Shown piece by piece: positions 5,969 through 48,800 of a stretch of DNA of 64,000 nucleotides; position 1 is the first letter of the stretch, and the number at the start of each line of letters is the position of its first letter. The notes under the pieces are model-generated. The model saw only the letters and a list, made by a program, of their open reading frames with translations. It had not been told where the DNA came from and made no database searches. Origin of the DNA: Eutreptiella sp. 'Long Island Sound 2002' (lineage: Eukaryota > Euglenozoa > Euglenophyceae > Eutreptiales > Eutreptiaceae); assembly GCA_964036045.1 (NCBI GenBank), contig OZ038386.1, positions 14,481,433-14,545,432 on the forward strand, written 5' to 3'. The translations under genes and the position numbers were made by a program.

Positions 5969-6601
5969 TAATTGTCACTTCCTCTTCTTGTTCTTCCCCC
6001 CCATCGACACCTCTTCTCCTTCCAATTCTCTCGCCTCCTGCTCCGGAACCAGCTGTCCGTGTATTTCCATCTCCCTACCTTGCGGGCATACCTGCAACCT
6101 TTCCACCGGGTACGGCAGAGTGCCATGGACCTTTGGATGGTTCTCAAGGTTATATCATGATCATTGGTGAGTTCTCAACCTCCAGCAAGGACGACAGCGC
6201 TGCCCACATCCTGCAGATTACGAAGTGGTCAAGTTGGAAGTCAAAAATATGAAGATTTCAGAAAAAAAAATTCATGGTATGGGCCAAGAAGATTGGTGAC
6301 CAGAATTGTAATCATAATAACTATGGGCCATGAGAAATGGTCTTATTGGTTATTTCTGTATTATATTATCTGATCAGTGGATGATTTTACAAACTGTGAA
6401 TTTTTCTGATTTGCTTTGTGTTGTCTTTGGTTTTAGGGTCAGGACATCTCAGAAGTGCATTTTTGTATTTTTTGTTTGTTCACTTTTTTTTTTCACTATT
6501 TGTGTTTGGAGAAAAACACATATTTCTCCGGGTTCTGTTGGGAGAATCAGCCCCAGACCCACCCAATTTCTGGCTGGGTGTGTCTGAGCTTGGGAGGGGA
6601 G

Positions 6602-13267: not shown

Positions 13268-13273
13268 ACGGTT

Positions 13274-14851: not shown

Positions 14852-14854
14852 AAA

Positions 14855-16690
14855 CTAACATTCTTCGAGTTTGATTCGGAGATGGTTTTCTTGACACACA
14901 ATGAAAAATTCATGGAGGAGAAGGACATGGTCCTCTTGGATATTAGTACCCAAACTCAGATCGTCGATGTGGGCCTCCATTTCTGCACCCCGAGAAATCA
15001 ACTCCTGTACTAGAGGCCTGCACCTCAGTATGTACAAAATTCTGTTCATTAGCTCCTGGAAGAGCGCCGGGGCATTAGCCACCCCGAAAGGCATAACCTT
15101 CCACTTAAAGACACGGCCCTTAGGGGTTATAAAAGCCAGCAGCTCCTGAGCTGCGGCGGTTAGGTCCACCTGCCAGAAACCAGAGCGTTTGTCCATTTTG
15201 GTCTTGTGCCTGCATTTGGCAATACGCTCCAGGGTATTTTCCATGTTAGGAATACTCCCTGAGTGGTTCTGGGTTTTCTTGTTGACCTCACCATAGTCTA
15301 CAACCAGTCGTAGGGCAGTCGACCCTGGTTTGGCAACCAGGAAACAGGGACTGCAGTGATGGGGGTAGTCTTCTTTCTTATATTCTTCAACGAGGCCAGC
15401 ATCTATACATTCCTGGATCTGGCGCTCGATTTCTTCAACCTGTTCCTGTGGAGTGGGATAGGGACGAGGCCTCACTCGTGTCTTTTCAAATTCAGGTTTC
15501 AGTTTCAGGTCCATCTGCACCAGTTTTTTACAAGAGAGGGGAGGCGGCAAGGCGCCGAACACCTCCTCATAGGTTATCAGCAGTTTCCTCAGTCGGGGGT
15601 CAAGGTTAAGACTCTCCAGTTTCTGCAGGAAATCCTCCTCAGCATGGAGGTTGCTCTTTCCATGTTCTTTTTTTTTCTGCCGATCAGCAGTTTCGGCAGG
15701 CAAAGAACCATCGTCCCACTCAGGGGGGCATTGCTGCCCATAGTGCAGAGAATACACTAGCGGTATCTCAGGATCAGGCAGCATATAGGAATCATCGTCC
15801 TCCTCAGACCAGATGGAGGATTTCCAGGTCTGTCTGAGGTATTGCAGCCGCTCTTGGCGCTCAATACCTTCGGCCTTCAGGTACAACAGCCGCTGGAGTT
15901 CCTGAGTGTCATGCTCAGACAATGGCATGTTATTGGCAGCAGGCCGCGCCAGAGCATCAGCAATCCGGGCCACGGGTTCACCTGTGTGCATAGGCTGCAT
16001 GTGTAGCACTGGCTTCCCAACAGGGGAAGCGGGCTCAGAGGTTGACTCTAGATCTACCTCCTCCAGCAACAGCTGGGCTAGGAAGGCACTGTGTTTTAGG
16101 TCAACACAGCTGGGATCAACAGGAGGAATAGTGCTGGCGATCTCAGACAGTTGGTCGTCAGCATCCTCCTTTACAGCTGCAGGTTCCAGATAGCCATCGG
16201 GAGACTCACACCCTGTAAGTGTGGCAGATAGGTGCTCAGGAGATCGATTTTTGAGATCAGAAAGGGTCAGGCCACGATTTTCGGCCATGACCTCTTTCAG
16301 TAGCACCTGGTCTAGGTCACACAGGGGTACAGGATTGAGAGATCCATCAACGATGAACAGGAAACTGGCCCACTCAGGGGCCTGCATAGCTGTGTCTGAG
16401 TCCTCAGGCACATAGATGGGGCCGTCGGGGAGTTGCACTCTTCCCACGGTCATTCGATCTAGCATACGACGCCAGTAAGCATGTTCACCAGAGCAGCCCC
16501 AGTCAGGGGTGCACATGACAACCCTTCCTCCCTCATAAGCGATTTTGGTTAGAACCTTCGCGAGCAGGGAGAAGGGAGGGTTAGCATACGCTAGGCCCAT
16601 TGCTTTCCAGAAGAAACGGAAAGCATTGTTCAATTGTTTCGAGCGGTACAACTGCATGATGTGCTGTTGTTGGCTCGCAAACAATTCCAC
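14855..16690 (-). CDS. Gypsy methyltransferase-like segment and reverse transcriptase
   Basis: 611 residues, in the -1 frame relative to the protease frame and open through the overlap, so -1 frameshifting is one possible expression route. Residues 1-130 contain ELFAS, ANPPFSLLAKVLTKI (NPPF at 37-40), VVMCTPDWG and LPDGPIYVPE, resembling the Dam-like adenine methyltransferase region of some retroelements. Reverse transcriptase occupies about 350-611: LRLVVDYGEVN, KMDKRSGFWQVDL, FKWKVMPFGVANAPALFQ, and AHIDDLSLG as the catalytic box with His instead of Tyr/Phe before I-D-D. The chosen start is a GTG; an upstream start in the same frame cannot be excluded. Confidence 0.82.
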   Translation of the reverse strand: MELFASQQQHIMQLYRSKQLNNAFRFFWKAMGLAYANPPFSLLAKVLTKIAYEGGRVVMCTPDWGCSGEHAYWRRMLDRMTVGRVQLPDGPIYVPEDSDTAMQAPEWASFLFIVDGSLNPVPLCDLDQVLLKEVMAENRGLTLSDLKNRSPEHLSATLTGCESPDGYLEPAAVKEDADDQLSEIASTIPPVDPSCVDLKHSAFLAQLLLEEVDLESTSEPASPVGKPVLHMQPMHTGEPVARIADALARPAANNMPLSEHDTQELQRLLYLKAEGIERQERLQYLRQTWKSSIWSEEDDDSYMLPDPEIPLVYSLHYGQQCPPEWDDGSLPAETADRQKKKEHGKSNLHAEEDFLQKLESLNLDPRLRKLLITYEEVFGALPPPLSCKKLVQMDLKLKPEFEKTRVRPRPYPTPQEQVEEIERQIQECIDAGLVEEYKKEDYPHHCSPCFLVAKPGSTALRLVVDYGEVNKKTQNHSGSIPNMENTLERIAKCRHKTKMDKRSGFWQVDLTAAAQELLAFITPKGRVFKWKVMPFGVANAPALFQELMNRILYILRCRPLVQELISRGAEMEAHIDDLSLGTNIQEDHVLLLHEFFIVCQENHLRIKLEEC

Positions 16691-16707
16691 CTGGATCTCA
16701 TCCAGGT

Positions 16708-17181
16708 TTACCTGAAGGGCCGGCAGTCCATTTCAAGAACGTGACGGGCCAATTGGTAGTTTTCAGTACGATAGTTAGTCTTGGATGCGTAGCGCAGCCC
16801 AGACTCTTTTCGTCCTGACAGCTCCAAAGGTACGGAGAACAGCCCACTGCCAAAGTCGCAGTGCAAAGAATAGGGGCGCTGGAGAGACAGCATTTTTACC
16901 TCGGGGTTTCTTCGTAGGAAGTCTGTACCAATGACGATGTCAAAGGCGTCGGTGTCCAGCACTCTGCAGTGTTGGGTCACCGTTTCGTCGCCCAGGCATA
17001 TAGTCACATCAACCCCCCCCAAGGAATGGATGGTACGCCCATCCCCTACTCTTATGGCCACGGTCTTAGTTTTCTTGAAAGTCTTTAGCAGGCGCCGGGC
17101 CACTATGGAAAGTGTTGCACCGGTGTCAAGCACCGCTCGAAAAACTTGATCCCCGATTTTCACGAGGATCCAGAAAGCCAA
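16708..17181 (-). CDS. Gypsy aspartic protease
   Basis: 157 residues with a retropepsin-like core: FRAVLDTGATLSIV (active-site DTG at about 19-21), a flap-like VGDGRTIHSLGG region and FDIVIGTDFLRR. It would process Gag-Pol. It follows Gag in the same frame after a TAG (17206-17208), with short acidic codons between, so readthrough is conceivable. It runs into TAA just where the reverse transcriptase frame takes over in -1. Confidence 0.85.
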   Translation of the reverse strand: MAFWILVKIGDQVFRAVLDTGATLSIVARRLLKTFKKTKTVAIRVGDGRTIHSLGGVDVTICLGDETVTQHCRVLDTDAFDIVIGTDFLRRNPEVKMLSLQRPYSLHCDFGSGLFSVPLELSGRKESGLRYASKTNYRTENYQLARHVLEMDCRPFR

Positions 17182-17628: not shown

Positions 17629-20544
17629 CGGGACGGCCTATCCCCCCCCACGCGGGGGGCGGCGTACCACCCGCCAGCAGCCCTCATGTACATCCTCCGC
17701 GACGTACTCGCGGAAAGCGAGCACCAAGAGCCTAACGCGGAGGTGGCGTGGCCAGAGCCCTTGCGCCCCCGGCCCCACGCGCCAACGCCGTTGTGGTTGG
17801 TGACCACGGACGACCAATGCACCCAAGCGACGGGGCAAGCGCAGCTCCGGGCCGAGTGGGTAATAGTGCAAGTGGGGGCAGGCCAGCCCGAACCCCGTGG
17901 GCTCCGCCGTGGCACAGCCCTACTGGTGGCTACGGGGGTGCCGCACGACCCACACATGGCGGTACACGCGCTGGAGGACCAGCCGGAGGACACGGGACAC
18001 CTGGTGGTGCACCAGCGCGGGGGCCCGGCGTGGCTCAAGGAACATGTGACGGCGCTACGTTCCTGGGCAAGCACGGTCGCCGGAGCGGAGATCCGGCTGC
18101 ACGACCACCCGGCGATCAGCCCAGGCGACACCAGGGCGCTGAGCGTGGACCAACTGACCCCCAGCCACCCCGACGTCCGGTGGCACTCCGCCGACCTCAA
18201 CGCGGGGTGGCTCAGCCCCACCGGATACTACTGGATCCCGGAGGCCTGGGGACACACGTCCTCTGACGCGTCCGGGGGCGGACCCTGCAAACACGCCACC
18301 AGCGTCGCTCTCGCCGCCGACCTCACCCGCACGTGGGCGGTGGCCATCTCGGGCACGGTGCCCGACGGGGAGGGGCCAGCCGCCTGCCCCCCCCTACAAT
18401 ACGGTGCCCACAGACCATGGGTCCACACGGTGGACGCCGAAGTCATCCTCCACCTCCTGCGGCACGCAGATCGAGAACGAACCACGGGGGTCCCCGCGGG
18501 CGCAGCGAAGGTGGTCAACCAGATGCCCCTGAGGTGGCTCCGGGACGGCCTGTGCGCGCGAGGGCAACACGCCGGGCACCCGTTCTGGTACGTCCGAGCC
18601 ACCTCGCACCACAGTGACGCCCTACTGCACAAGGCGGACTGGGTGGCGTCCCAGGACACCGTCCTGCAGAACACGCCCGCGGACCCTGGCCACGCCCAAC
18701 TCATTGTCGCCGGCCGTGACGGCGATCTCGATCTACGGCCCCCCACGATGCGGGTGCTCGGCGAGGTCGCGCAACGGGCGCAGACGGACCATGCGCTGAC
18801 GCACCGGGGACACACAACTTTGGGCGCGGCCCACGCCACGGCCTACGTCCACGCCCGGGACCTCACCGCAGCGGCCACCAACCGCCGGGCGCTGCGGGCC
18901 CGAGACGGCCACACGCCGGTGCAGCGCAGGCTCCGCGTCTGGAAGGAGCGGCTCTCCGGCGTCGCCATCGTCCCACAACCGTGCCTTCTCTGCGGCGGCC
19001 CGGAGGAGACCCCGGTGCACATCCACGTGGGGTGCGCCCACTCACGGCTCCTCTGGCCCCACTACCGCCAGGCGGTACACGAGTCGGCCCGCCACCTCCC
19101 ACCCGGGGACAAAGCCCTGTGGGTGGCCTCGTGGCGCTCCGCAGGCGCCACGTGGACGGAGGTGTTCTGCTCCGGACTGGTGCCCGAGGACGCAGAGGCG
19201 CAGCTCCGCGCCATAACCCGATACGACCCGCCGGGAGGGACCTCGGTGGACGATTTCCTCCACCACATGCTCCGGCTCGGGGACTTCGCGTGGGAGCTTC
19301 GCAACCACCGGCTGGAGCAACTCCTCCGCGAGCCCCAGAGCGCGGCGGCCCGGGCGCACCGGTGGCTCACTGCGGCGGAGGGCGACCAACCTCCCCCTCC
19401 CCCGCGCCCTGACAAGGACTTCGTAGCCTCCCTCCGTGTCGTGAATGGCACTCTGGAGTGCCCGCCCCAAGAGAGCCCCCACCCGTACCAGGACCTGCCG
19501 GGGGGGTTCTCCAGGCACCTACAAGACGCCCTCTTCCCACCGTGGATCATCGGGCGCGGCTCCATGACCGCTTTGGAGGCGCGCATTGTGGGGGAGGAGT
19601 GGGCGCGTGAGTGGAGCCGGTGGTGCGCCGCCACGCGCGCCCCGGAGACCCCTGCGCAAAGATACGCCGCCATCCCGCTCCAGTGGTGGGGGCCGGACAC
19701 CCGGCCGAGACCCACCATGATCCGCGGGGCGGGGCCTGACCACCCGTGGGACGCGGCGACGGGGGAATGGCTGCAGGCGGCCCCGGGGCCGCAAACGGGA
19801 TGGACTGGGGACGTGTCCTCACTCGTCAGGACACCCGTCCCGCCCCGCATCGTCCTTCACGCCGCCAACGTGCTCCGGGCTACGGAGATACGCACGTGGG
19901 GACACGCTGCGGCCACCGTCCGGTGGCACCCCCCAGAGGACGGGGCCACCCAACTCACCGTGGCGCACTTCAAAGCTGGGGGGCCGGTATACGACGACGC
20001 CCTGTCCCGGTTGGGCCACACCCAGGGGCCCTTGCTCCTCATGCTCCCCACCGGCATTGCAGCCGCGCTGCGCCAGGAGCTAGACAGCTGCGAAGGGCTG
20101 CGAGTGGGGTGGGAGGCAGTCGCGGACGGCACCCTGCTGGCCCTCCTCCACAGAGACACCGCGAACGGGTGCCAATGGGATGCGCTGACGCCCCACCTCA
20201 CCGGGCGCCACGTGTACATGGCGAGCCCCCCCCAGGGGCACCCTCGCCCGGCGTGGGACGACCTCATCGCCGCCTTCCACGACCACGGGATCCTCCCCGA
20301 CGACACGTGGCAGGAGGTCCAGCGGAAGACACTTGGCAAGGACTACCGGCGCCGCGTCCGCGCCCGCCTGCTGGAGATCAGGGACCCCTCCGACAGAGGT
20401 GGGACGACCTCTGGCTCCGCCATCTCGACCCTTGGTCGCCGCCCTCCCACCTCCCACACGCCTGCCGACTCTGCGGAGAATGTGACACGGTGTCCTCCGC
20501 AGCGTCGACAGGCGCCAACAGGTGCGCGCGGTGCGCCCAGGTAG
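17629..20544 (+). CDS. LINE B polyprotein C-terminal part (RNase H-like, zinc finger, unknown extension), 5'-truncated
   Basis: About 970 residues from the insertion junction; the frame is open upstream in gypsy sequence only by chance. An RNase H-like region is suggested by TWAVAISGTVPDG, VHTVDAEVI and a C-terminal SHHSDALLHKADWVAS. A CCHC-type cluster CLLCGGPEETPVHIHVGC is the typical LINE C-terminal finger. It is followed by about 500 residues with no domain I recognise (for example TVAHFKAGGPVYDD and TLGKDYRRRVRARLL near the end). No reverse transcriptase or endonuclease motif remains. Assignment to a LINE rests on the finger, the target duplication and the tail. Confidence 0.75.
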   Translation, partial: RDGLSPPTRGAAYHPPAALMYILRDVLAESEHQEPNAEVAWPEPLRPRPHAPTPLWLVTTDDQCTQATGQAQLRAEWVIVQVGAGQPEPRGLRRGTALLVATGVPHDPHMAVHALEDQPEDTGHLVVHQRGGPAWLKEHVTALRSWASTVAGAEIRLHDHPAISPGDTRALSVDQLTPSHPDVRWHSADLNAGWLSPTGYYWIPEAWGHTSSDASGGGPCKHATSVALAADLTRTWAVAISGTVPDGEGPAACPPLQYGAHRPWVHTVDAEVILHLLRHADRERTTGVPAGAAKVVNQMPLRWLRDGLCARGQHAGHPFWYVRATSHHSDALLHKADWVASQDTVLQNTPADPGHAQLIVAGRDGDLDLRPPTMRVLGEVAQRAQTDHALTHRGHTTLGAAHATAYVHARDLTAAATNRRALRARDGHTPVQRRLRVWKERLSGVAIVPQPCLLCGGPEETPVHIHVGCAHSRLLWPHYRQAVHESARHLPPGDKALWVASWRSAGATWTEVFCSGLVPEDAEAQLRAITRYDPPGGTSVDDFLHHMLRLGDFAWELRNHRLEQLLREPQSAAARAHRWLTAAEGDQPPPPPRPDKDFVASLRVVNGTLECPPQESPHPYQDLPGGFSRHLQDALFPPWIIGRGSMTALEARIVGEEWAREWSRWCAATRAPETPAQRYAAIPLQWWGPDTRPRPTMIRGAGPDHPWDAATGEWLQAAPGPQTGWTGDVSSLVRTPVPPRIVLHAANVLRATEIRTWGHAAATVRWHPPEDGATQLTVAHFKAGGPVYDDALSRLGHTQGPLLLMLPTGIAAALRQELDSCEGLRVGWEAVADGTLLALLHRDTANGCQWDALTPHLTGRHVYMASPPQGHPRPAWDDLIAAFHDHGILPDDTWQEVQRKTLGKDYRRRVRARLLEIRDPSDRGGTTSGSAISTLGRRPPTSHTPADSAENVTRCPPQRRQAPTGARGAPR

Positions 20545-20780
20545 CCGCGTGCCCCTGACCTGAACCTCCCGCAGGCCCGCGCAGGCGCACAGAGGAGGAG
20601 GCCTTGCGCCGGCGCATCGAGGGGGCACACACCCCCTCGCACGAGCAAGCGGGCCCCGCGGGCGCTGCCCTTCTATGGATCCACGTGCACCTGCGGGACC
20701 CCACGTCCGTTGCGCACCTGTCGCACGTGTTCGCCCCCTAACCCCCACCCACCGCCACCCTTTGCAGAGCCCGCAGCACC

Positions 20781-22013
20781 ATGCCACGCCGACGGGGGGA
20801 TGGGCCGGGGCACACCAGGGCCCGCCGCAGGGCGCAGGAGGCGGCCGTCCGGGGCCTGGTGGCGGACGCGGTAGCGGAGGCACACGAAGCGCACGCTGCC
20901 GCACGGTGTGACCTGGAGGGCAGTGCGAGGGCTTTCCTCAACGAGACCGCCCTCCCGGCCGTCCGCGCCCTGAACGGAGCGGGGGCCCCTACGCTGCTCC
21001 CGGGAATGCACCGGATCGTGAACGCCGTCCAGCCGGGGCTCATCAGCCCGGGGGCGGCCCTCTACGGGCACTGGATGGAGTGGCGCGAGTCCAATCGGTC
21101 GGGCCGGCCCCTGTCCATGGGGGACACCCTGCGGCTGACGGGAGCAGGGTCTGCCATGTCCCTCCGCAGTAGCGCCCCAGCCCTGCTGCACGCCCTCAGG
21201 ACGCGCTACCCCGGGGACGCGGCCCCATACGTGAAACAGGCGCGGGCCACGTACCCGGGAGGAGTGTCCGAGCTGGATGCGGCGCTCCACCTTCTACACC
21301 CGCCGGACGAGGACCTGGAGGTGGGCGAGGTCACGGTGTTCGTGGAAGGCGCGGACGAGGCGTCCGCCCGCCCCCGGCCGACCAACCCGGTGTACGACGG
21401 CACCAGGCCTACCCCCCCGTACGCCGTCGTCTACGAGGCGTTCCCCAGGGAGCCCACTTGGTGCCCCGCCCTCCCGCCGGCGACGCACGCGCCCCGCGGC
21501 TGGGCTAACCCAGACCTGTCCCCCCCCCTCTCCAGAACCAGGGGTGCCCACCACAGGGGGGAGGTCCTCTGGCAGGAGTGCCCTGGCACCCCCCTGCTCC
21601 TCCTCGTCGTCGCGACCCGCGGGGACCCGGGGCGGATCCTGGGGATCACCCCCACCCACCTCTATGGGGCAACACCCGTACCCCGCCCCCCCCTCCCGGC
21701 GCCCGCGGCGCGGGACGGAGTACACACCTTCCTGCGAACACAGGAGGTCACCGCCGTTACGGGGGTCCACCTGGTGCGGCTGCCCCCGACACCGCTCGAC
21801 GACCCCCGGGGGCCCAGGGCCCTGGGCCCCGTCCCAGACTGGGAGCTGTGGCGCGACGCGTGGGCCGCGTGGCTCCCCCGCCTCCCCTCCCAATGCCGGT
21901 GGATGGCCGCAGGCCCCCGGCCGTGCGGGGCTGACGCCACAGCCGGCCCCCCACCCCCTCCCCCCCTCCCCCCCGCAGAGCACCACACGGCACTGCCCAC
22001 GGCACGGCACTGA
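20781..22013 (+). CDS. LINE B downstream frame 1, unknown protein
   Basis: 410 residues, ATG to TGA, 236 bases after the RNase H/finger frame. It begins with a basic stretch (MPRRRGDGPGHTRARRRAQE), has an alpha-helical-looking region (AVRGLVADAVAEAHEAH) and ends Pro-rich. I do not recognise a domain. Its length in very GC-rich DNA is weak evidence, because stops are rare there; in favour are an ATG start, its position between two other sense frames and a mixed, protein-like composition over residues 20-200. Confidence 0.5.
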   Translation: MPRRRGDGPGHTRARRRAQEAAVRGLVADAVAEAHEAHAAARCDLEGSARAFLNETALPAVRALNGAGAPTLLPGMHRIVNAVQPGLISPGAALYGHWMEWRESNRSGRPLSMGDTLRLTGAGSAMSLRSSAPALLHALRTRYPGDAAPYVKQARATYPGGVSELDAALHLLHPPDEDLEVGEVTVFVEGADEASARPRPTNPVYDGTRPTPPYAVVYEAFPREPTWCPALPPATHAPRGWANPDLSPPLSRTRGAHHRGEVLWQECPGTPLLLLVVATRGDPGRILGITPTHLYGATPVPRPPLPAPAARDGVHTFLRTQEVTAVTGVHLVRLPPTPLDDPRGPRALGPVPDWELWRDAWAAWLPRLPSQCRWMAAGPRPCGADATAGPPPPPPLPPAEHHTALPTARH

Positions 22014-22332
22014 TGCATGAGGAGGTAGTGGGAAGGGCGCGCCTGCCACCACGCGTGCCTACCAGGGTAACAGTGATGGCAGACTCCGATGGGTCCCCCC
22101 AGCGGGACGACCGCCACCACCGCCGGTCCCGCTCCCGCTCCCCCGTCTCCTCCCCGGAGTGGACGGGGGAGACCCTCGCGGAGCGCAAGGAGCGGAGGCT
22201 GGCGGAGGCGGCGGTGCTGGTCGGGCCGCCGCCGCCGGCCCGGGAGCCTGGGCCAGCTGAGATGACCGCCCCCGCCGCCCAAGCAGCCAGCCCCGCCGCC
22301 CCCCCCCGAGAGGGGGCCCAGACACGCAGGAA

Positions 22333-24291
22333 GTGGAGACCGCAGCCCCAGCGAGCCACGCCGCGGCCCCGACCGCGGCCCCCGGCACGCCGCCGACACG
22401 GGGGGCAGCCCCGGCCCAGGAACCGGGCGCATCGCCGAGGGCTGCCGCAGCCGCAGAGGACAGCAAGAAGGCCGACCACGCCGCGGCCCCCGGCACGCCG
22501 CGGAAGCGGGGGGCAGACCCCGCACGGGCCATGGGCGCCTTGTCGGCGGCCGCCACGGCAGCGAAGGAGAGCGGGGAGGGCGCGCGAGGGGCTGCGGCCG
22601 CGACCCCGGCGGGCCGCGACACCACCTCGGCCGACCATGCGGCGACCCCCAGCACGCCGCGAAAGCGGGGGGCGGACCCCGCACGGGCCATTGGCGCCTC
22701 GCTGGCGGCCGCTGCGGCAGCAGAGGAGAACGAGGAGGACGCGCGAGGGGTTGCGACCGCGGCCCCGGCGGGCCGCACCATCGCCCCGGCCGACCACGCC
22801 GCGGCCCCCAGCACGCCGCGAAAGCGGGGGGCGGACCCCGCACGAGCCACGGGCGCCTCGTCGGCGGCCGCCACGGCAGCGAAGGAGAGCGAGGAGGGCG
22901 CGCGAGGGGCTGCGGCCGCGACCCCGGCGGGCCGCGACACCGCCTCGGCCGGCCACGCCGCGACCCCCAGCACGCCGCGCAAGCCGGGGAAGAACCCCGC
23001 ACGGGCCACGGACGCCTCGCCGGCGGCCGCCGCAGCAGCAGCAGTGGGCAGGGAGAGCACGAAGTACCGCGCCCACGCCAACCCCACCCACACCGGCACC
23101 AGCCCCCCCAAGCCGTTCCCCCCCAAGCCCTTTTCCCCGGGGCGGGAGCGGCACGTCCGCCCCCCGACGCGCGAGCGCTCGCCGCCGGGCGTCACGCTGC
23201 CGCAGCTGCAAAGGCAGCGGGACGCCCGGCGAGTGGTCCAGGAAGGGCGCAGCAGCGGGGGGGAGCAGAGCGCAGGCAGCGGACGGCGCAACTCGGGGCA
23301 GGGGGCCGGGAAGGGGCCAGGGCACGGGAAGGGCGCGCAGGGGCGCGGGCAGGAAGCCCAGGTGCAGGGGGCAGGGCGAGGGGAGGTGGGAGAGCGAGCG
23401 GGCCAGGGCGTGGGGGACGGGAGGCGGGACCCGCGGCACAAGCAGGGGGCTGGAAAGGGGCCCAAGGGCAAGGGCAAGGGCGCCGCAGGCCCCAAGGGAC
23501 AGGCGGGACGGGGCATGGGAGCCCAGGGGGGAGGACGGGACGAAGGGAGGGGGGCAGAGGGCGGGGCGCCCCCGCAGCCGGACGTGCAGCCGTTGAGGTG
23601 CATCCCCCCCGGCATCCAACAGATGCCGGCACACCACAGCCACCACCACCACCACCACCACCACCACCACCTCTACAACATCGACCCTGACGCCGGCGAG
23701 CTCGTCCCCCCCCAACCCCCACGACACCAGCACCATCAAGCCCCCCCCGCGCCGAGGGCGGAGCCGGCGCGGATGGCCTCGGCGGAGGGGGGACGGGGCG
23801 CGGCATCGGCGCCGCAGGCACAGGGGCAGCGAGGGGGGCCGGCACGGGGGGCGGAGGAGGGCCGGCCATGGGACCGGGACTGGGGCGCGGTCCCGGACCC
23901 TCTGGGGGAGGAGACCCTCCCCCTGGTGGGGGAGGTGTACGGGTGGTTGTGCTGGGCCAACCAGGGGACCTCCAGGAGGTCGAGGAACCGGCCCTTCGAT
24001 GCCGTGCTCCTCCGGAGGGACGGAGGAAACCGAGAGGTACCCCCGGGGGGGTGGGCAGCCCCAGAGGACCATGAGAGGGTCCTCAGGTCAGTGATCCGGG
24101 CGGCGTGGCCCGACAGGGAGCCGACGTGGCCGGCCTTCCTGGAAGGGGGAGCGGTGCTCCGCATCACGGATGCGGACGCCAACAACTGGCTCCCCCGGGC
24201 TTTGCGCAGCGCCCTCGCCCACTGGCGCTACCGCCGGCACAACCCGCCGCCGCCGCAGCCCCAGCCCCCACACAAGCGGCGGCGCAGGTGA
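22333..24291 (+). CDS. LINE B downstream frame 2, repeat-rich basic protein
   Basis: 652 residues from a GTG. The first 230 residues are a 53-residue repeat (core TPRKRGADPARA) in four to five copies. Then come Gly/Lys-rich stretches (GAGKGPKGKGKG), a run of ten histidines near 23640-23670, and a less repetitive C-terminus (VYGWLCWANQGTSRRSRNRP, FLEGGAVLRITDADANNWL) ending in Lys/Arg. Such a basic, low-complexity protein could bind nucleic acid like an ORF1 product; this is inference. A plausible true start is the ATG at 22076 in another frame (MADSDGSPQRDDRHHRRSRS, SR-like); an indel in the nine-C run near 22303 would join the two frames. Confidence 0.5.
   Translation: METAAPASHAAAPTAAPGTPPTRGAAPAQEPGASPRAAAAAEDSKKADHAAAPGTPRKRGADPARAMGALSAAATAAKESGEGARGAAAATPAGRDTTSADHAATPSTPRKRGADPARAIGASLAAAAAAEENEEDARGVATAAPAGRTIAPADHAAAPSTPRKRGADPARATGASSAAATAAKESEEGARGAAAATPAGRDTASAGHAATPSTPRKPGKNPARATDASPAAAAAAAVGRESTKYRAHANPTHTGTSPPKPFPPKPFSPGRERHVRPPTRERSPPGVTLPQLQRQRDARRVVQEGRSSGGEQSAGSGRRNSGQGAGKGPGHGKGAQGRGQEAQVQGAGRGEVGERAGQGVGDGRRDPRHKQGAGKGPKGKGKGAAGPKGQAGRGMGAQGGGRDEGRGAEGGAPPQPDVQPLRCIPPGIQQMPAHHSHHHHHHHHHHLYNIDPDAGELVPPQPPRHQHHQAPPAPRAEPARMASAEGGRGAASAPQAQGQRGGPARGAEEGRPWDRDWGAVPDPLGEETLPLVGEVYGWLCWANQGTSRRSRNRPFDAVLLRRDGGNREVPPGGWAAPEDHERVLRSVIRAAWPDREPTWPAFLEGGAVLRITDADANNWLPRALRSALAHWRYRRHNPPPPQPQPPHKRRRR
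22370..23010 (+). repeat. 159-bp minisatellite inside LINE B frame 2
   Basis: The string GCACGCCGCGAAAGCGG or a close variant recurs at about 22490, 22649, 22808 and 22967, a period of 159 bp (53 codons), so the frame is kept. A partial, more diverged unit lies upstream near 22384. Confidence 0.8.
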
Positions 24292-26648
24292 AGGCCCAGA
24301 CGGCGGGTACGGGAGTTTTGGGGGGGGGGGCTGGGCCCCCCGACCCACGCCCCCCCTACGGTACGGCACGACGCAAGAGGGCGTGCCACCTCCCGCGGGA
24401 GGGAGTGCGGAGACAACGAGCGCGGGGGGGAACCTGCTGCCCCGCAGCCCGCTAACCACTGACCGCTAACCCTCACGGCCACCCCCGGCCGGCCAGCGCC
24501 GCGCGACAACGGCCGGGGGATGAGGGGCCCCGGCGAGGGCCTGCGCGAGAATCCGGCTCTCGGTAGAGGGGGGCGGGGGAAGGGCGCGACCCCCCAGCCG
24601 ATGGCTGGCCCCCGGGGCCAGGACTGCCATGCCGCCCCCCCCCCCCCCCGGCCGACAGGAGGCATCGCCAGGGGACCAAAGGGCCCCCCCCACTCCCCCC
24701 CCCCCCTCCCACACAGGCCCGAGAGCGGGCGGGGGGGCGGCCCCCCCACCCCCCCCCCCCCGCACCCACCTCAGCTGGGGAGCCACAGGCGCGGCCCTCC
24801 GCCCCCCCAGGGCCGGGGGGGCGCCCCCCCCCCAGGAGGAACGGCGACGCGGTAAGGGCAACGGCGGCTGGACCTGCTCCCGCGAACCCACACCGGCGTG
24901 CCGGAGCAACGCGCACAATGGAACAGGAAGGAGGCCGCGCCCCACATGACCCTCCCGTAACCACAGCCCACTCCGAGGTGACAGAGGGGGGGTTCAGGTC
25001 AGCTGGGGCCCCCGGGGGAGCGGTCCACGGGCCGCCCCTCACCCCCCCCCACCCCGGGGCGGCACTTCAGCCCCGACCGCACGCGCGCGCCGGAAGGGAG
25101 CGCGCCGGCGACACGGAGAGGGCTAGGAAGGAGTACCGCAGGCCGCCGCCCGGAACGAGAGCAGGGAGGCCGCGGCGCGACACCCCCCCCCCCCCCCCCC
25201 GCCCCCCCACCAGCCCGCCAGCCGCGGGGGCCCCGGCCCCCACCCCCCGAGGCAGAGGGGATGGTCCCCCCCCGCCCGAGAGGGGAGCCGGAGTGTGACC
25301 CGCCCCCCCGCCCCAGCCGCCGGCTCACATGGGGGCCGCGAAGAACAAGCGGGCCCACGCCTGCGCACCGGGACGCCGCACAGATCGTACCCAGAGAAGC
25401 CGGGTGAGCACGAACCGGAGTGGTATGGGGGGCCACGTCCCCCATGGACAGCACAACGCCAGTGACGCCCGCTTTGTTGCCTGCCCAGGGAAGGCAGAGG
25501 GACGGAAAGAGGCAGAGCGACACCCCGCCCTACAGGCCCCGCCCCGGCCGCACAGCCGGGGGGAACGGCGCACGCCCCCCCCCCCCCCCAGCCCGCCCCC
25601 CAGCATAAGAACGCCATGGACCCGCCCCGCGGCGCGCAGCCCCCACAGGGACAGAGCAGGGCCCCCACACCCGCACGCCCGCGCCCACAACGCGGACCCC
25701 GACAGCCCACCCAGCGGGCGGGCAGTCGGGGGAGGAGGAGCGCAAGACCCTAGACGCCCCACGCAACGGTCGAAGGCACCCCCCCGGGGACGCCCTGCCG
25801 CCGCCCCCACAACCCCAAGCCATGTAGGGGGGAACCGGGACCGGACCGCCCCCCCCCAAAGCACGCCAAACGGAGCAAGGGACCGGGGCAGGACACGCGG
25901 AGGGGCACGGACCACGTGGAACGGCCCTACCAGCGCCCGGTGCCGGGACCACGCGAGATGCGCGCGCCACACCACCCAGCGGGGGGGGGAGCGGACACCG
26001 CGAGAGCGCGAGCGCACACACACGAAAGGGACACGCGGGGACTACCGGAAGGGCAACCGGACCGAGCGCGCGGAACGCACAGACCGCATGGAATGGCGTA
26101 CCAGCAAGCGAGGGTAAGGGAGACCCGGACGGGACGGCCCGCCACACGCAGCGCCGAACACGCGGGGCGGGGAGGGGGAAACGAAAGAGACACGACGCCA
26201 GGTACGGGCCCGAACCCCCCCGAACCGGCCGCGAGCGCCGCGCACACACAGACGGGGCACTGCGCCCGCCAAGGCAGTAGTGGCGCACAGCGCCACGCCC
26301 GAACCCCTAGGCTAGGCAGCCTCCGCGCCAGCCCAAGGGGGTCCCACTGGCGACAAGCCAGTAGCACGGGCCCGGCGGCGCCGGCGCCCCGGGCGACCAC
26401 GCATTAGGGGGGCGACGCAGTGGGTAAGCGCCCGCAGCCACGGCTGCGAATTGATGCACTGACCGGGGAGTGGCGAAACGGGGACGCCGGGGAAGGACGG
26501 GGCTCCGAGCTCTGTGAACCCGGGGGACTCCGCCACCAGGCAGGAGGTGCGTCTTGGAGGGCCCCCCACTAGGACCCGGTGGGGAGGATATCACCTGGCC
26601 CGACCAGGTGGCCCCCCGGGGCCGAAAGGCGTCTAGTACCCGCAAAAT
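24292..26648 (+). other. LINE B 3' untranslated region
   Basis: 2.36 kb with no convincing frame. It is dominated by C and G homopolymers (many runs of 8-13). Near the 3' end lies a clean hairpin, CACCTGG-CCCGA-CCAGGTG at about 26593-26611, shortly before the tail. A segment at 26410-26445 (GACGCAGTGGGTAAGCGCC followed by CGCAGCCACGGCTGCG) is faintly like a tRNA A box plus stem, but no B box follows. Confidence 0.6.
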
Positions 26649-34082: not shown

Positions 34083-34900
34083 TGTGTGTGTGCGTGCGTG
34101 CGTGCATGTGTGCCTGGGTGCCTGCGTGTGCACATGTGTGTGTAGTTGTAAGGGGAAGCATCATCTGGAGGAGGCCAGTCGTCCTTCTGTTCAGACAGCG
34201 AATTACACTGTGTGATCATTGCACGTTGCAAACAGCAGTATTGCGGGGGAAGACGATGTCTCTTGCGCCCTGTGCTCAACCTATTTGCATTGCCGCCTCT
34301 TCTTTCATCGCCTGACATTATCTCCACATGCAGAACCGACTCCTGCATTTGGCTACTGCGGTCAACTTGTCCACCGTGACTCTCTTGTTCCACCTTGCTA
34401 ACCCCTAATTTCTACCTGTCTGCCATTTTTAGTTGCTGTAGCTCTTCCTAACAGTGCAACTTCACATCTACTTGTACTTGTGCTCGTGCAAAAGCCGCTT
34501 GTACATCCATCGTCTCCTTCATTACACTTGTAGCCACTCTCATGTTCCCTTGGTTAGTTTGTGGACAGTGCACACAACGGTTCAAAATGCAAGGTGAGTG
34601 TAAGCAGACACGTAAATGTGTGTGTGGGTGGGGGGGCGGATGCAGGGGCTATATTGAAAGAGGGAGCTGCACTCCCAGTGCCCAATGCAGCAGATGATGC
34701 CAGTTCCAACGCTCTCAGACTTGGCGCAGGGCAGCTGGTGATGAGCTTCAGCAAGGGGCGCTCTTGAGGGACCCTGAGGCGATCCAGAGGTCGCACTTCT
34801 GCTGCAAAGGCACCGCTTTGGGCGACTGCTTGTGATCCTGGGCGCAGCAGGGCAAGTCAGCTGCCCAGCTGCAACCAGACCATTCCAGGTCTCCACCACG
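34083..34900. other. Non-coding stretch right of the SINE
   Basis: Begins with a TG/CG-rich microsatellite (34083-34145). A minus-strand frame at 34554-34796 (RPLDRLRVPQERPLLKLI) looks mildly protein-like but has no partner exon or domain I can name. Confidence 0.35.
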
Positions 34901-35110
34901 AGAGAGAGAGAGAGAGAGAGAGTGAGTGAGTGAGTGAGTGAGTGAGTGAGTGAGTGAGTGAGTGAGTGAGTGAGTGAGTGAGTGAGTGAGTGAGTGAGTG
35001 AGTGAGTGAGTGAGTGAGTGAGTGAGTGAGTGAGTGAGTGAGTGAGTGAGTGAGTGAGGGAGTCAGTGAGTGAGTGAGTGAGTGAGTGAGTGAGCGAGTG
35101 AGTGAGTGAG
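34901..35110 (+). repeat. GA and GTGA simple-repeat array
   Basis: About 22 bp of GA repeats followed by about 188 bp of near-perfect GTGA tetramers, with a few interruptions after 35055. It stops 86 bases before the assembly gap. Confidence 0.97.
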
Positions 35111-35196: not shown

Positions 35197-35396
35197 NNNN
35201 NNNNNNNNNNNNNNNNNNNNNNNNNNNNNNNNNNNNNNNNNNNNNNNNNNNNNNNNNNNNNNNNNNNNNNNNNNNNNNNNNNNNNNNNNNNNNNNNNNNN
35301 NNNNNNNNNNNNNNNNNNNNNNNNNNNNNNNNNNNNNNNNNNNNNNNNNNNNNNNNNNNNNNNNNNNNNNNNNNNNNNNNNNNNNNNNNNNNNNNN
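35197..35396. other. Assembly gap
   Basis: Exactly 200 N, probably a fixed-size placeholder. True size and content are unknown. Confidence 0.99.
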
Positions 35397-42800: not shown

Positions 42801-45800
42801 TCGCGCTTTGCTGCAATTCCAACTCCACCACCAAAACCAACCTCCTCTGTCCGCCCCCCCCTCCTCCCTCCCTCTCTTCGTCCTTCCTTCAATCCATCCC
42901 TCGCCGCCACCGGGGACATCTAATCCACATACCTTGACCGGAGGTATCTTCTGTACTGCGAGCAATCGCCGTTCCAAAGCCGCCAAAGCCTCCTCCACGT
43001 GCAATCCGTGCAGATCCAGTTGCCATTGGGTGCCTTGAAGAGGGTTCTTCTTCTTTGCTTTGGCCCCTGGAGACCAAAGTGCGGGGGTGGCAGTGCTTGT
43101 GGCTGCGGCTGCGTGTTGCCGTGGCTTCAATTGCGAAAGATGTGCTCCAGTCACCGCCAGTAAGCACAGGCAGCAGACACTTAAGCCGCTCGAGGCACTT
43201 GGGACACTTGGACTGGTCACATAATTGATTGGGGGTGTGAAATATTTGGGATGGAGAACGACATTAGCGATCGAGAGTCCGTGTTATGTCTGGCACCTGA
43301 ATGCAGAGCAATGCCCATGTTCGCCTGTGTATCGAGCCCAGGGGGGGGGGCGACATGCAAGTTTTGCACATGGGGGTGTTAACAAATTTTTCAGCCCCCT
43401 CGAAAAAAGGGGTAGTTTGGGGGGTTTTTGCACATTTCAAACCTGCCCGCTGAAAAAAGGGACAGTTTTTGTATTGAACAAAAACCAAGGCAAAAAAGCA
43501 CCGCGTGACCCTCACTGGAATGTATAATTTCTAGACTGATGCTTGGCACAGGTCCCAGGGCCACAATTTCTGCACCCTGCAGCCCCTGTTGTCATACCAG
43601 GATTTTTCAATTTTTAGTCTGATGCTTACCACAGGTCTCAGAGTCCCAATTTCTGCTCCCTGCAGCCCCTACTGTCGTACCAAGAATGTTTAATTTTTAG
43701 TCTGATGTGTGGCTGTTGCTCACAAAGTTCTCTTGTGGCGTCACTCCACGGTTAATCCGGGCACGTGCCTGGACCTTGTGACCCGAGCTGGGGTGTTCCC
43801 GCCATGCAACAGGGCTTGAGTCATGCAACAAAGTACTTCGGGGACGGATTTTTTTGCGGTAGGTCAGCCTCACCATTTTTGGTACATCGGCGGGAATGTA
43901 CGCCTTCACTGCCTTATGTCTTGCGCTGCTTGGCCGCAACACTTGGTTTGCATAAGCCTTGTCGGCAAATGAGCCCCTTGCAAAGGATATCACCGAGTTG
44001 GATGCTCAACACCTCCGAAGAATGTTGTTGTGTCATGAGGAAAACCGAGGACATGTTGCGAAGAGACCCTAGGTGCTCACTTTTGACATAAAAATAGTTA
44101 AAGGTTGGTGAAAACTAGTTCAAGTACCATGTTTCACTCCTACTTTCCCTGCACACTTGCAAGTTACAAAATCAGAGGCTTTTAGGTGCCTACGTGCCAT
44201 TTACATTGCACCGGTCCTGCCATGCTGTTGCAAAAACCCATTTGAGGTTTCTCCATTTGCAACCCCCTCCCTTGCATTGACATTTAAGGAGTTGCCTTAG
44301 ATGTGATGCCATCCAAAGTTCAAGTACCACCTTTCACCACTGGCTATTAAGCCCAGATTTGAGACACTGATGGTTTTGGTGCACCCAGCCTCAGGCCCCC
44401 CCCCCAAAAAAAGACCCCACAACACTAGCCATTTCATGGGACCAGAAAAACCTGTTGGTTCACTGGGAATCGAAGGGTTTGTTGATTGTCCACCAAACTG
44501 TACTACTCTGGCCCTGTGGTTCAAGTACCTATTTGAAAGTGGTTCAAGTACCATGTTGAACTAGTTCAAGTGGTTAAACATACAATGCAGTTCTACTGGT
44601 TCTGTCCACTGAAATTGAGGCCTGTGATGGATGTTTTTGTGCTCCCTGTGTCCCTTCAGCAGCAAGGCAGTCCTACATGCAGACATTAATGCAATCCAAT
44701 ACACTGTAATACCCATGGGGCGTCCCTGCAAGTCTGAGAAGCAGTCCAGATGCACGACAGTGCCCAAAGAGTCACTGTCGGCTGAGGCAACCCACCACAT
44801 GAGGTTGTGCAGGGTTGCTGGAGGAGTGGGAGGATGCTGGGACGTCTAAATGGTCGACTGGTCTAAAAACACCATGCAGACACATGTGGATCCCCAACCA
44901 GACTGCCAGCGCTGTCTGTACATTATAGCACTTTCACCACTCTCACCGGTGAAAGTACCAGCTTGAACTGGGGAAACCGGGCCCCCATCGGTGAAACGAG
45001 GTCCATATTGTATAAGCCCATCAGGCAGGAAACCCGAGGGCGCTCAATGTCTGCTTTTGCAGGCGCGTCAAACGGCGCCACGCAACAGCAGAAAAATATA
45101 TGAGTGAAATGCGGTCGCCATGCCATGGCAACGGGCAATGAAGACAGTGAGAGTTGAAAATCACCCCTCTCCTTGGGTCCACCGCAACGCCGTGCACCGG
45201 CTGCCCTTCATGGAAGGTGCACACTGGTGCTGGCTGGTGGCCACTGGAGATGATCCCCTGACTGAAAAATTCCCCACCGCTAAAATCGCCAAAACACACG
45301 ATCGCAGACAAAGTCGACTCATCATTCTTGTGGGTGTGAGGGAGCATGGGGTCTGTACCTTTACCCCGTCTAATTACCTGGATGCATGTCCAATGTACAC
45401 TGGGAAACAGGCGCCCACCTAAGGCATGGAGGCAGCGTGTTAAGTCACTGTGGGTCTCTGTCTCGCACGCAATGGATGGTTGACTGTATGCTGCAAAGCC
45501 CCGCAGGGCACCTAAGTACAAACTCTGCACAGCTGCATTATGCTTAACAATGTGCCGCCAGTTACCGCTGCTGCGGATGAGTTCCTCTGCCGCCTGTGCC
45601 ACACCTTCACCGTCGAATTCTGACATAACCTTGCCCGCGTCGCGCCATCAAGCATCTTGCTCAATTTTGACTTTCACCTCGTCCTTGACAGCAGCGGTGC
45701 TGGGGCATGCATCGATTTCAGCGTTCTCGTCGGTCTCATGGGGTTCACCATCATCTGGGGCATCTGGGGAACCACCACCTCTCCCATACCATCATACTCC

Positions 45801-48800
45801 GGCAATGTGGCTCTCACTTGCAATGGAGCTTTGCGGGACGATGTTCATGGTCGTTGCGGACTGGGTGCTCACGGGCCGATCAACACGAGCGTGCAATGCG
45901 TGCGCATCTTGAGACAAAGTAATGCCCGGTGAAGGCGGCAAACCACTGAACCGGAGGTACACGCTGACATTCCCTTCCTGATCAGAATCCGCGGTGATAT
46001 CAACGTGACCACCGGAACCAAATCTGTATCGGGTGACCATTCTTTGTTGTTGATCAATGACTGCACAACGTGTAGGAGCGGTCATGGGCACACAATACGA
46101 CCGTACAACACCTTTGTGGTCATGTGCTATGTTCCGCATGTGGGTGTTCATGAATCGATTGGAACCCAAGCTAGTTTGACCCGTCCAATCCTAGTGTGTG
46201 CGGCTCCGCAAGCGTTTTCCCCAATTCAAGACGCTAGGTGCCAGTTAACTTGGGAAGCGCTTCAAATGCTTGTGTTTGTGCCTAATTCATCCATTTCCCA
46301 GCATCGCAACTCAAACTACATCAGCCCACATATTATTTTCAAGGTTCAACTCGGTACTTTCACTGCGTGCGCTATTCTGCGGCACCGCGCGCGTCGCCGC
46401 GGCGATGCACTGTATGCTGCAAATTGCATGAACTAGTGAAAGTACCAGGTTTTAACCATATGAGACGTGTTTCTACGTAGCTGAATGGGTACTTTCACCA
46501 TTTCCTGCGGTGAAAGGTGGTTAAAGCACCACCTTTCACCAAAACGTGTGGTGAAAGGTGGTGAAAGGTGGTGAAAGGAAGTAGTGTTCAAAGTGAGCAC
46601 CTAGGGCGACGAAGACAATGGACATAAGCAAAGACAGAAATTGGGACCCTGCGACCTGTGGCAAGAATCAGACTAAAAATCAAAAATTTGATGGTGTGAC
46701 AGTGCGGGCCGCGGGGTGCAGAAATTGGGACCTTGGGACCTTTGGCAAGCATCAGACTAAAAATTAAAAATTCCTGGTATGACAGCAGGGGCTGTAGGGT
46801 GCAAAAATTGGGACTCTGGGACCTCTGGCAAGCATCAGACTAAAAATTAAAAATTGCTGGTGTGACAGCAGGGGCTGCAGGGTGCAAGAATTGGGACTCT
46901 GAGACCTCTGGCAAGCATCAGACTAAAAATTAAAAATTGCTGGTGTGACAGCAGGGGCTGCGGGGTGCAGAAATTGGGACCAGGGGACCGGTGGCAAGCG
47001 GGGAGAAATCAACAAAACTCAAATGTGCGAAACGGGTGTTAACCAAATTTTTCAGCCCCTTCGAAAAAACGGGGTAGTTTGGCCAAACTATACCCTCTGT
47101 CGAGAATTAGCATGTCGCCCCCCCCCTGATCGAGCCTGTGCCCATTTCCAAAGACGGGTACATGCCAGGGCAGTCGTTAGTGATTGTTGTTGTTATTGTG
47201 TTTACGAAGCACCGCGCCCCAGGAACGCCCTCTCGGCCGGCGGTTAATGGCCAGATTTTGTCCAAAGAAGCACCGACTGCGGGTGAAGGTTCGCCCATAT
47301 GTCTTCTCTTAACTCCTGACAGATTGGGAGCTTTGCTGATGGTAGCGCCTGGTTGCCTTCTCCGTGGTGGTGTGCGCATTCGTTGGGTCAAGTGTACATT
47401 CACGCACGCCTTTTTGCCCAAGCACCGCCCTGGAACAGGCGTCCGCCCGCCAGTCAGTGCAGGCACGGACCCCACGGCCCGACGGCCGTTGCATCTTTGG
47501 AGAGGCATTTCATGGGCGGTCCCTGTCCATTGCCGGAGGGCCTGTGCAGTGCACTGGTCTGCGTGGTCCCCATGTCACGGGATGACTGGGGCGGTCAGGA
47601 GGTGCACCCCCTGTTTCCTCAACGTTCTTCCTGCGCAGGCGGGCCCACAAACACATTGACGCAGACGTGTGCTGAGGCTGGGAACGGGGCGGGATGCGTC
47701 CTCCCGTTGTGTACTTGCAACGAGTCCTCTTGTTTGGCCGCGGCTTCGTGGTCTCGGGCGCAGGATCTTGTGGGCGGACCATCGCGGGTGGGGGCTTTGG
47801 TGAAGAGGAGAAGCGGGATGGCCCGATGGTGTGACACGGCAGAATCGCCAGGACTGTCCCCAGGGGAAACAAAAGAGGTCCTGTCTCATTGCCTTGCGGT
47901 CCAAAACCCGGCAGCTGACGATCGGCGGTTGGCGGTTCGCCGGCAGCGGTCCCGGACTTTCGGTATGAAACAGGGAACACAGCCAAAACCGTCTCTTAAG
48001 GAACGCCTTCATGATTGCGGATGCCAATTGCTCGTGGTTGATCTCTTGGCCTCAACGCTTTTGCCAACCCAAACCGTGCCTCCGGAATATATTCCGGTGC
48101 TTCCGGAATACATTCCGGTGGGTCATTTCCACTGCCCCCCATTACATTCGGCACCGGGTGAGTCGAGGCTGACATAGCATTCTGTCATCCCCTCTCTCGT
48201 CAACCTCCTGCAGGCGGACGAGCTGTGTGGTCTGGGTACTGGCCAGGGAGGGGGCCGACCCGAGGCCCTTTGTCGATCCAAAGAAACCTCACACTAATCT
48301 CCTCAAGTCAGGGGCTCAAGTCCAGATCCGCCTCCGTGGCCTCAAGGCCCCCTCCCATGGGCGCATGGGTGTCACCTGCGGGCGCGCTATTCAATTCCTT
48401 CTCGATCCTCTCGGCCGCTGCTGCGTGCAGCTCCAAGGCTTCTGCACGCAGGGCCCGGGCCTCGGTCGCCAGTTGATGGGCGGTCGCGCCATCTCCCTCA
48501 CTGTACGCCGCCGCAGCCCTTCGCACACGGCGCTGCGCGGCCTTGTCGAGCCGCACCGCCTCCTGACAACGACCAAGCGTGCCCAGGGCATGCCCAGCAA
48601 TGCGTACCCCCCGCCCCGCGGCTGCGGTGCCTTGGCCGCGCCCATGCCGCTCCTTCCGAGGAGGTTGGGAGGGAGGGAGTTGGCATGGAAATGGGAACGG
48701 TGGACTTTCTGCAGAGCGTTTGTCATGTCCCGGGACCCGGGCTGTCAATGGTATGGCACGGGATGCCATGGGCCCCGCATTTGCCCAATCTCTCAAATTT

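Follow-up and report, generated by a model that had tools for sequence, protein, structure and literature searches.

When a gene lies between the clean termini of a transposon, it can be asked whether the gene belongs to the element that those termini define. This question is raised by an interval (43339-47128) in a 64,000-nucleotide stretch of the genome of the euglenophyte Eutreptiella sp. 'Long Island Sound 2002' (assembly GCA_964036045.1, contig OZ038386.1, forward-strand positions 14,481,433 to 14,545,432; this stretch is called the window below), which an earlier note had read as a single DNA transposon whose one substantial gene encodes a TET/JBP-like oxygenase. Comparison with the rest of this genome shows that the interval is a nested pair, in which an outer element with hAT-like features is interrupted by an inner element with terminal inverted repeats (TIRs), and it is the inner element that contains the oxygenase-like gene. 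With fair assurance, we read the locus as nested transposons whose inner member is a deletion derivative that kept this gene, and which moved as a composite, with the full-length relatives of the inner element proposed to make a fusion protein by readthrough of a UGA codon.

Two nested transposons

The outer element comprises a left part (43339-44067, plus strand) and a right part (46608-47128, plus strand), recognized by comparison of their repeats and termini. It is bordered by identical copies of an 8-bp target-site duplication, ATCGAGCC (43331-43338 and 47129-47136, plus strand), exactly as the earlier note had it. The perfect 19-bp inverted terminus of that note needs a small correction, in that the inverted ends match over CA plus 17 nt and differ by one G, the 5' end having 20 nt with 10 G (CAG(10)CGACATGC) and the 3' end 19 nt with 9 G (GCATGTCGC(9)TG); the length of this G run also differs among genomic copies. 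When up to 3 mismatches are allowed, the terminus has 2 matches in the window versus 0.08 expected. The 83-bp subterminal repeats that had been reported are likewise present, with ~2.3 copies on the left (two of them, inverted, at 43517-43707) and ~4.3 on the right (46638-46999) in inverted orientation. About 49 bp inside both outer ends (43374-43420 and 47034-47082) there is in addition a repeat of 94% identity that is direct, not inverted.

The chromosome-scale genome of 2.28 Gb was searched with the DNA of the whole interval, and the best 40 of 2229 candidates were scored, so that counts from this search are lower bounds. Without its insert the outer element is 1.25 kb long at the window locus and non-autonomous, and the solo outer copies in which both ends were found are only 1.0-1.2 kb long. 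In all 16 solo copies that were fetched, from at least 19 listed, the gene is missing and the left and right outer parts adjoin with no insert between them. Exact 8-bp duplications flank ten of the 16 at the ends printed by the script and are legible at two more (L086 and L090), while the duplication could not be resolved at the other four; two of the ten (L081 and L095) have an identical 8-mer, and so possibly reflect a single event that was copied. The window copy and these ten thus combine the features used to recognize hAT elements, an 8-bp target-site duplication and short TIRs with CA..TG ends. Judged by its 8-bp duplications and CAGGG...CCCTG termini, the outer element is a non-autonomous DNA transposon with hAT-like features, in agreement with the earlier description of its ends.

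The inner element occupies 44068-46607 (2540 bp, plus strand), with ends CCTAGGTGCTCAC ... GTGAGCACCTAGGGC that form a 22-nt inverted repeat of 91% identity. These bounds, and a 3-bp GAC target duplication (44065-44067 on the left and 46608-46610 on the right, plus strand), follow from comparison with empty sites, because four printed solo copies read AGAGAC-GAAG where the window reads AGAGAC-(insert)-GAC-GAAG. The inner family also appears as a separate set of genome matches that start at the inner boundary. Among these, L096 is a full-length copy of ~7.7 kb, extending from CCCTAGGTGCCCAC at 210 to its inverse near 7926, and L098 and L101 align with it almost end to end. The window element matches only the two extremities of each relative (211-1928 and 7183-7924 of L096, 205-1933 and 7067-7835 of L098, 209-1900 and 7071-7833 of L101). 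Of the full-length family it keeps 1.74 kb at the left end and 0.79 kb at the right, and the ~5.25 kb between them, which held transposase-like frames, is gone at a junction near 45809/45810; the oxygenase-like gene was retained. These comparisons show that the interval is an outer element interrupted by an inner TIR element, and that the latter arose by internal deletion from a TIR transposon of ~7.7 kb. Inverted termini, a duplication, empty sites and full-length relatives that bear a putative transposase were all found for the inner family. A point that weighs against this assignment is that the 3-bp duplication is clear at the window copy only, being ambiguous at L101 and L098 and at most TT at L096.

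The two families also differ in how they have decayed. Transitions at CpG sites amount to 8.5% in ten inner copies, versus 2.4% at other C or G sites, and to 1.7% in 16 outer copies, versus 1.8% at other C or G sites, which is no difference. The CpG-biased decay of the older inner family is compatible with decay driven by methylation, and says nothing about the role of the encoded protein.

A genome-wide search for further copies had been proposed earlier, with a chance host sequence as the alternative should the copies lack the gene. The solo outer copies do lack it; a chance host sequence was nonetheless rejected, since the gene is part of the nested inner family, whose full-length members have it too.

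The oxygenase-like gene and its transposase-like partner

The 201-residue open reading frame (ORF) of the earlier note (45021-45626, minus strand) holds up, as it is conserved in other copies and under selection in the intact ones. The whole open frame covers 45021-45647 (minus strand), or 208 codons after an in-frame UGA, with the first ATG at 45624-45626, and it has homologues in the same genome. A protein search of the genome returned at least 150 relatives (the best 150 of 3685 first-look candidates were scored). These include a close family of about two dozen loci at roughly 53-100% identity, plus further oxygenase-like subfamilies at 31-40% identity, many of them with intact frames. Three of the matches (G000:C10:25543275, 25545905 and 25548535) are spaced exactly 2630 bp apart, which suggests a tandem array in or beside one element.

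Intact copies of the gene are under purifying selection. The ratio of nonsynonymous to synonymous substitution rates (dN/dS) comes to 0.18-0.44 when the window copy is compared with each of seven further intact copies, and the corresponding ratio of the proportions of differing sites (pN/pS) is 0.46 when the 28 pairs that these eight copies form are pooled; some pairs lie near or above 1, as is expected because the copies are decaying. In five full-length copies, the oxygenase-like region has an excess of third-position substitutions, whereas the transposase-like region is near neutral (p 0.035 and 3e-5, from pairs that are not independent); in the same five, the constraint on ORF1, the frame upstream of the UGA, does not differ significantly from that on the transposase-like region (p 0.16).

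In the full-length relatives, the genes for a transposase-like protein and, downstream of it, the oxygenase-like protein lie on one strand, and the same arrangement recurs in distant relatives. A search with the transposase-like protein (102 of 7470 candidates scored) revealed a group of 35-36% identity, most of whose members have an open frame of 506 codons. An oxygenase-like match lies 3.5-5.0 kb downstream at 29 of the 68 listed loci of this group (at least 29 overall), on the same strand in 29 of 29, where 0.09 linked loci would be expected by chance. This count used 146 of the 150 oxygenase-like rows (four second fragments were dropped) and 68 of the 105 transposase-like rows (34 rows of higher identity and three small fragments were dropped). 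Gene order and strand in this group agree with those of L096 and L100 of the close family, showing that a transposase-like gene with a downstream oxygenase-like gene is common to two subfamilies that are only ~35% identical.

Several points about these genes qualify our reading. The length of the oxygenase-like ORF is not significant by itself, as an open frame of 208 codons or more turns up in 130 of 1000 sequences drawn from a first-order Markov model of the element, and the dN/dS values come from a sample from which copies with broken frames were excluded. Most of the 29 linked loci are nearly identical copies, so that together they represent one arrangement of one subfamily and not 29 independent events. 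The term 'transposase-like' itself rests on position, copy number, a TIR-bounded context and acidic motifs recognized by eye (GDG, GGDS, VES); the transposase-like ORFs yielded no convincing Pfam match (one weak, unrelated match had an expect value (E) of 0.11) and look near neutral within the close family. The KDZ transposase profile PF18758 matched neither these ORFs nor anything genome-wide, a weak negative given that it matched nowhere in the control genomes either.

A conserved UGA before the domain

Directly 5' of the oxygenase-like domain, comparison of the copies places an in-frame UGA (45648-45650, minus strand). Upstream of it, the window copy retains a remnant of ORF1 (45651-45809, minus strand), an acidic linker that is cut by the internal deletion and frameshifted, as seen by eye in comparison with ORF1 of L096 and L100. 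TGA occupies this position in 17 of the 20 inner-family copies that can be aligned there, the other three having TGG, TGC and TCA, and a further copy of the 21 examined (L076) is missing the stretch with the UGA. It is also found in five representatives of four divergent subfamilies for which upstream sequence was at hand. Three of these five, from two subfamilies, have the context TGA-CTA-G, one has TGA-CTC and one TGA-TGG; the context in the family of the window copy is UGA-UGG. Many near-identical oxygenase-like relatives with a single TGA are recent copies and were not counted as independent.

Coding constraint is evident on both sides of this codon. Substitutions at third codon positions exceed those at the other two before the TGA (0.222 vs 0.119 and 0.095), between the TGA and the first ATG (0.132 vs 0.073 and 0.059) and after the first ATG (0.207 vs 0.080 and 0.092). 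The inner family therefore combines a conserved stop codon with coding conservation in one frame on either side, the pattern by which readthrough is recognized. From these features, the conserved UGA suggests programmed stop-codon readthrough, which is the interpretation that we prefer.

The principal alternative is that the UGA is not read through, so that ORF1 and the oxygenase-like ORF would be separate proteins, or that a short intron removes it. We regard this as a serious possibility that falls somewhat short of even. In its favour, an ATG is present 8 codons past the UGA in most inner-family copies. Against it stand the third-position excess, which continues up to the UGA from both sides and also occupies the interval between UGA and ATG, and the finding that none of the five divergent representatives has an ATG ahead of the domain's conserved Trp. 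In addition, the UGA-CUAG found in two subfamilies is the motif of four mammalian readthrough genes, as described in PMC4132726.

Two other explanations of the UGA were rejected. TGA as a general sense codon is at odds with the use of TGG for all five Trp of the window ORF, and with ORFs of 831 and 1026 codons elsewhere in the window that are open under the standard code. A 389-codon frame with two TGA codons, taken as a single broken gene, does not fit either, because the second of these (45792-45794) is found close to the deletion junction, where the frame is shifted relative to ORF1 of L096 and L100. As for ORF1 itself, a BLAST comparison of that of L116 with that of L096 gave no significant match (E 1.8); by eye, ORF1 of L116 resembles L096 1781-2485, in that a small basic and aliphatic region is followed by an acidic linker.

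What the domain may be

The earlier note had assigned the protein to the 2-oxoglutarate (2OG)/Fe(II) oxygenase fold with TET/JBP-like spacing; the first part of this assignment remains plausible, and the second found no support. A profile comparison had been proposed as a check, and it gave no significant match to any oxygenase family. The window ORF has no Pfam match, a Pfam scan of 15 family members gave nothing but one unrelated match (E 0.21) with Tet_JBP in none of the 15, and the protein has HxH where a TET/JBP enzyme is expected to have HxD or HxE. Genome-wide, nine candidates for the Tet_JBP profile PF12851 were scored and six matched (one strongly, on contig C2034, two at E 0.001 and three more weakly), none of which is at the window ORF or at another scored oxygenase-like locus. 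The strong match (G000:C2034:19243-19665, E 6.6e-18) could be a host gene or a contaminant.

The proposal of a 2OG-oxygenase-like domain comes from its motifs. The family alignment identifies H104 (45336-45338), H106 (45330-45332), a GGE (45270-45278), H170 (45138-45140) and R179 (45111-45113), all on the minus strand. Across the 15 aligned members the pattern is HxHxx[DN][DE], a G-x-x-G-G turn, RxGV and HxP..W.G[DE]R, some of these being broken at single positions; the second histidine of HxH is present in 15 of 15 and the first in 14 of 15. The idea that an HxD decayed to HxH in the window copy alone was rejected, as HxH is found in 14 of 15 aligned members. When a profile of the family is aligned with ten 2OG oxygenases of phages, the core stays in register, and HTH falls on HTD, GGE on GGE and GDR on GTR. 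These phage proteins were reached through searches from L001, which was picked by its GDFSGGE motif, and were not themselves selected for the motif. Of 100 column-shuffled profiles, 1 surpassed the alignment score of 23.3, and the reversed profile scored 12.4. The 2OG family of PHROG was matched at E 0.15-0.47 across searches, and by two of the 15 members (best E 0.19).

On the other side of the balance, the hhalign probability of the phage 2OG alignment is 4.3%, and the PHROG DNA endonuclease V family does equally well over the same stretch (E 0.15-0.48; two of 15 members, best E 0.4). NCBIfam gave no match for the oxygenase-like protein, the best match in a profile search of the PDB was an unrelated Dmd protein (E 0.039), and a single-sequence structural model had a predicted local distance difference test score (pLDDT) of 39.8, too poor to use, with nothing found in a fold search. 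Moreover, a histidine replaces the acidic iron ligand, and because of this the oxygenase activity is doubtful and may be altered or absent.

Other searches contributed little. Neither the window protein nor alignment A1 found anything useful in viral contigs, nor did searches of phages. The GDFSGGE pattern occurs at 48 loci in viral contigs, of which three look 2OG-like (two of these were checked with Pfam), and an HxDKNNxGxS pattern at 3 loci; a search of the viral contigs with L039 returned only L039 itself. The hhalign values for A1 against L039 (51.6%) and L001 (11.7%) were not counted, as both had been picked by the GDFSGGE motif. Scans with Rfam and for tRNAs gave nothing useful.

A 2OG-oxygenase-like relationship is thus plausible from the motifs. 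A competing explanation, which we hold to be a real possibility but less likely than not, is that the domain is another HxH fold, cupin-like or nuclease-like for example, or a catalytically dead oxygenase fold that serves as a DNA- or protein-binding module. This would account for the lack of significant matches to 2OG profiles, the equal score of the endonuclease V family, the substitution of HxH for HxD in every aligned subfamily and an arginine after GD/GE that is not universal. Such a fold is harder to reconcile with a 2OG profile that stays in register across the whole core, including the GGE, the distal H and the GxR motifs.

Probable movement of the composite

Complete units of outer plus inner element are present at at least two loci, two having been found among the best candidates of the DNA search. 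The second composite (L053/L060) is 97% identical to the window unit over its length; its flanks are unrelated to those in the window, and the similarity goes no further than the two termini. Next to these termini stand GTGAAAT and GTGAAAAT, a 7-mer and an 8-mer that differ by one base in an A run. These borders are probably an 8-bp duplication that lost one A, and the outer and inner elements probably transposed as a unit. That the duplication of the second composite is imperfect, with one base different, weighs against this and would fit descent of the two composites from a common ancestor by segmental duplication, without transposition, as would the finding of only two composites, 97% identical, among the matches listed. 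We consider such a duplication improbable, in view of unrelated flanks, a similarity that stops at both termini and bordering 7- and 8-mers that differ by a single base.

The earlier reading of one transposon with one gene is correct to the extent that the outer element physically carries the gene in a unit that appears to have transposed, and gives way where the gene proves to sit in the inner element (44068-46607). That a single hAT-like transposon itself encodes a TET/JBP demethylase, as hAT-like termini and duplication with the gene between them and a second copy of the whole unit might suggest, is very hard to sustain when the gene is missing from 16 of 16 fetched solo outer copies, when the insert that bears it has ends, a 3-bp duplication and a genome-wide family of its own, and when the protein has no TET/JBP profile match and HxH for HxD.

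A proposed history and its implications

In the history that we propose, a non-autonomous hAT-like element received the insertion of a second element, a deletion derivative that had lost its transposase-like region and kept the oxygenase-like gene, and the composite would then have transposed as a whole, one or more times, by means of the outer ends. The order in full-length members of the inner family is a transposase-like gene followed on the same strand by ORF1, the UGA and the 2OG-oxygenase-like domain. Most ribosomes would make ORF1 alone, and a minority would read the UGA to produce an ORF1-oxygenase fusion. This fusion may modify DNA, chromatin or protein at the element and so keep the element mobile. 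Both the enzymatic activity of the protein and its anti-silencing role are inferred from sequence. It is conceivable, although we think it unlikely, that these elements constitute a large undescribed group of eukaryotic DNA transposons, in which a leaky UGA doses an ORF1-oxygenase fusion with an HxH site, an enzyme of a new catalytic type that deletion derivatives keep even after loss of the transposase and that other transposons can carry as cargo.

The locus also cautions that a gene surrounded by clean termini need not belong to the element that they delimit. At the level of the family, an abundant transposon couples a divergent oxygenase-like gene with a transposase-like gene over deep divergence, so an apparent oddity looks like a standard part. 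As constraint within one set of copies is stronger on the oxygenase-like gene than on the transposase-like region, selection on this gene can be studied directly. In addition, the conserved UGA offers a simple route to testing translational dosing, and the HxH motif to testing enzyme chemistry.

Other features of the window

Elsewhere in the window, two long adjacent ORFs (831 and 1026 aa) at 480-5974 (minus strand) resemble by eye a retrotransposon without long terminal repeats, with endonuclease, reverse transcriptase and RNase H, and ORFs at 12404-16732 (minus strand) look Ty3/gypsy-like (reverse transcriptase, RNase H, integrase and a chromodomain-like end). The region 18001-26000 has 72-78% G+C and long overlapping ORFs in several frames, with a 159-bp tandem repeat at 22470-23039, and a run of 200 N at 35197-35396 adjoins a (GAGT)n array at 34900-35110.

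Comparison with known systems

The relation of Ds to Ac is the familiar case of an internal-deletion derivative that keeps both ends and loses the transposase interior. The inner element likewise kept both ends and lost its transposase-like interior, and differs in that it retains an accessory open reading frame.

For the UGA, the closest parallel is provided by the mammalian genes with UGA-CUAG readthrough (Loughran et al., 2014; PMC4132726). Here the gene is one of a transposon, known from its sequence, and the window family has UGA-UGG; the likeness lies in the UGA-CUAG of two subfamilies and in coding conservation past the stop.

Zisupton/KDZ elements share with this locus 8-bp duplications (Zisupton, Dileera) and an association with TET/JBP genes (PMC12730594). 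They differ in the duplication of the gene-bearing element, which is 3 bp for the inner element here and not 7 or 8 bp.

Transposons that carry a dioxygenase gene are already known (PMC12730594). In fungi, DNA transposons of eleven lineages carry TET/JBP genes, and the set includes a hAT lineage (hAT7), whose duplications are 7 bp long, and KDZ lineages, in which they measure 7 or 8 bp (Kojima, 2025; PMC12730594). These fungal TET+ transposons resemble the family described here in having a 2OG-type dioxygenase gene beside a transposase gene in several superfamilies, and their PE-type enzymes have diverged so far that the HHpred match to CMD1 has E 1.4 (PMC12730594). Unlike the Eutreptiella family, with its HxH, they keep HxD or HxE, and their transposases could be classified (PMC12730594), whereas the transposase-like protein here has no convincing Pfam family. 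In the main text of Kojima (2025; PMC12730594), 'readthrough' occurs only in the title of a reference and 'stop codon' never, whereas a UGA precedes the domain here. Searches of a collection of open-licence papers showed no description of such elements. Relative to the fungal cases, the distinguishing features are the non-standard HxH site, the UGA before the domain and a transposase-like partner that Pfam does not recognize, plus a deletion derivative that keeps the accessory gene and a transposon that travels as cargo inside another.

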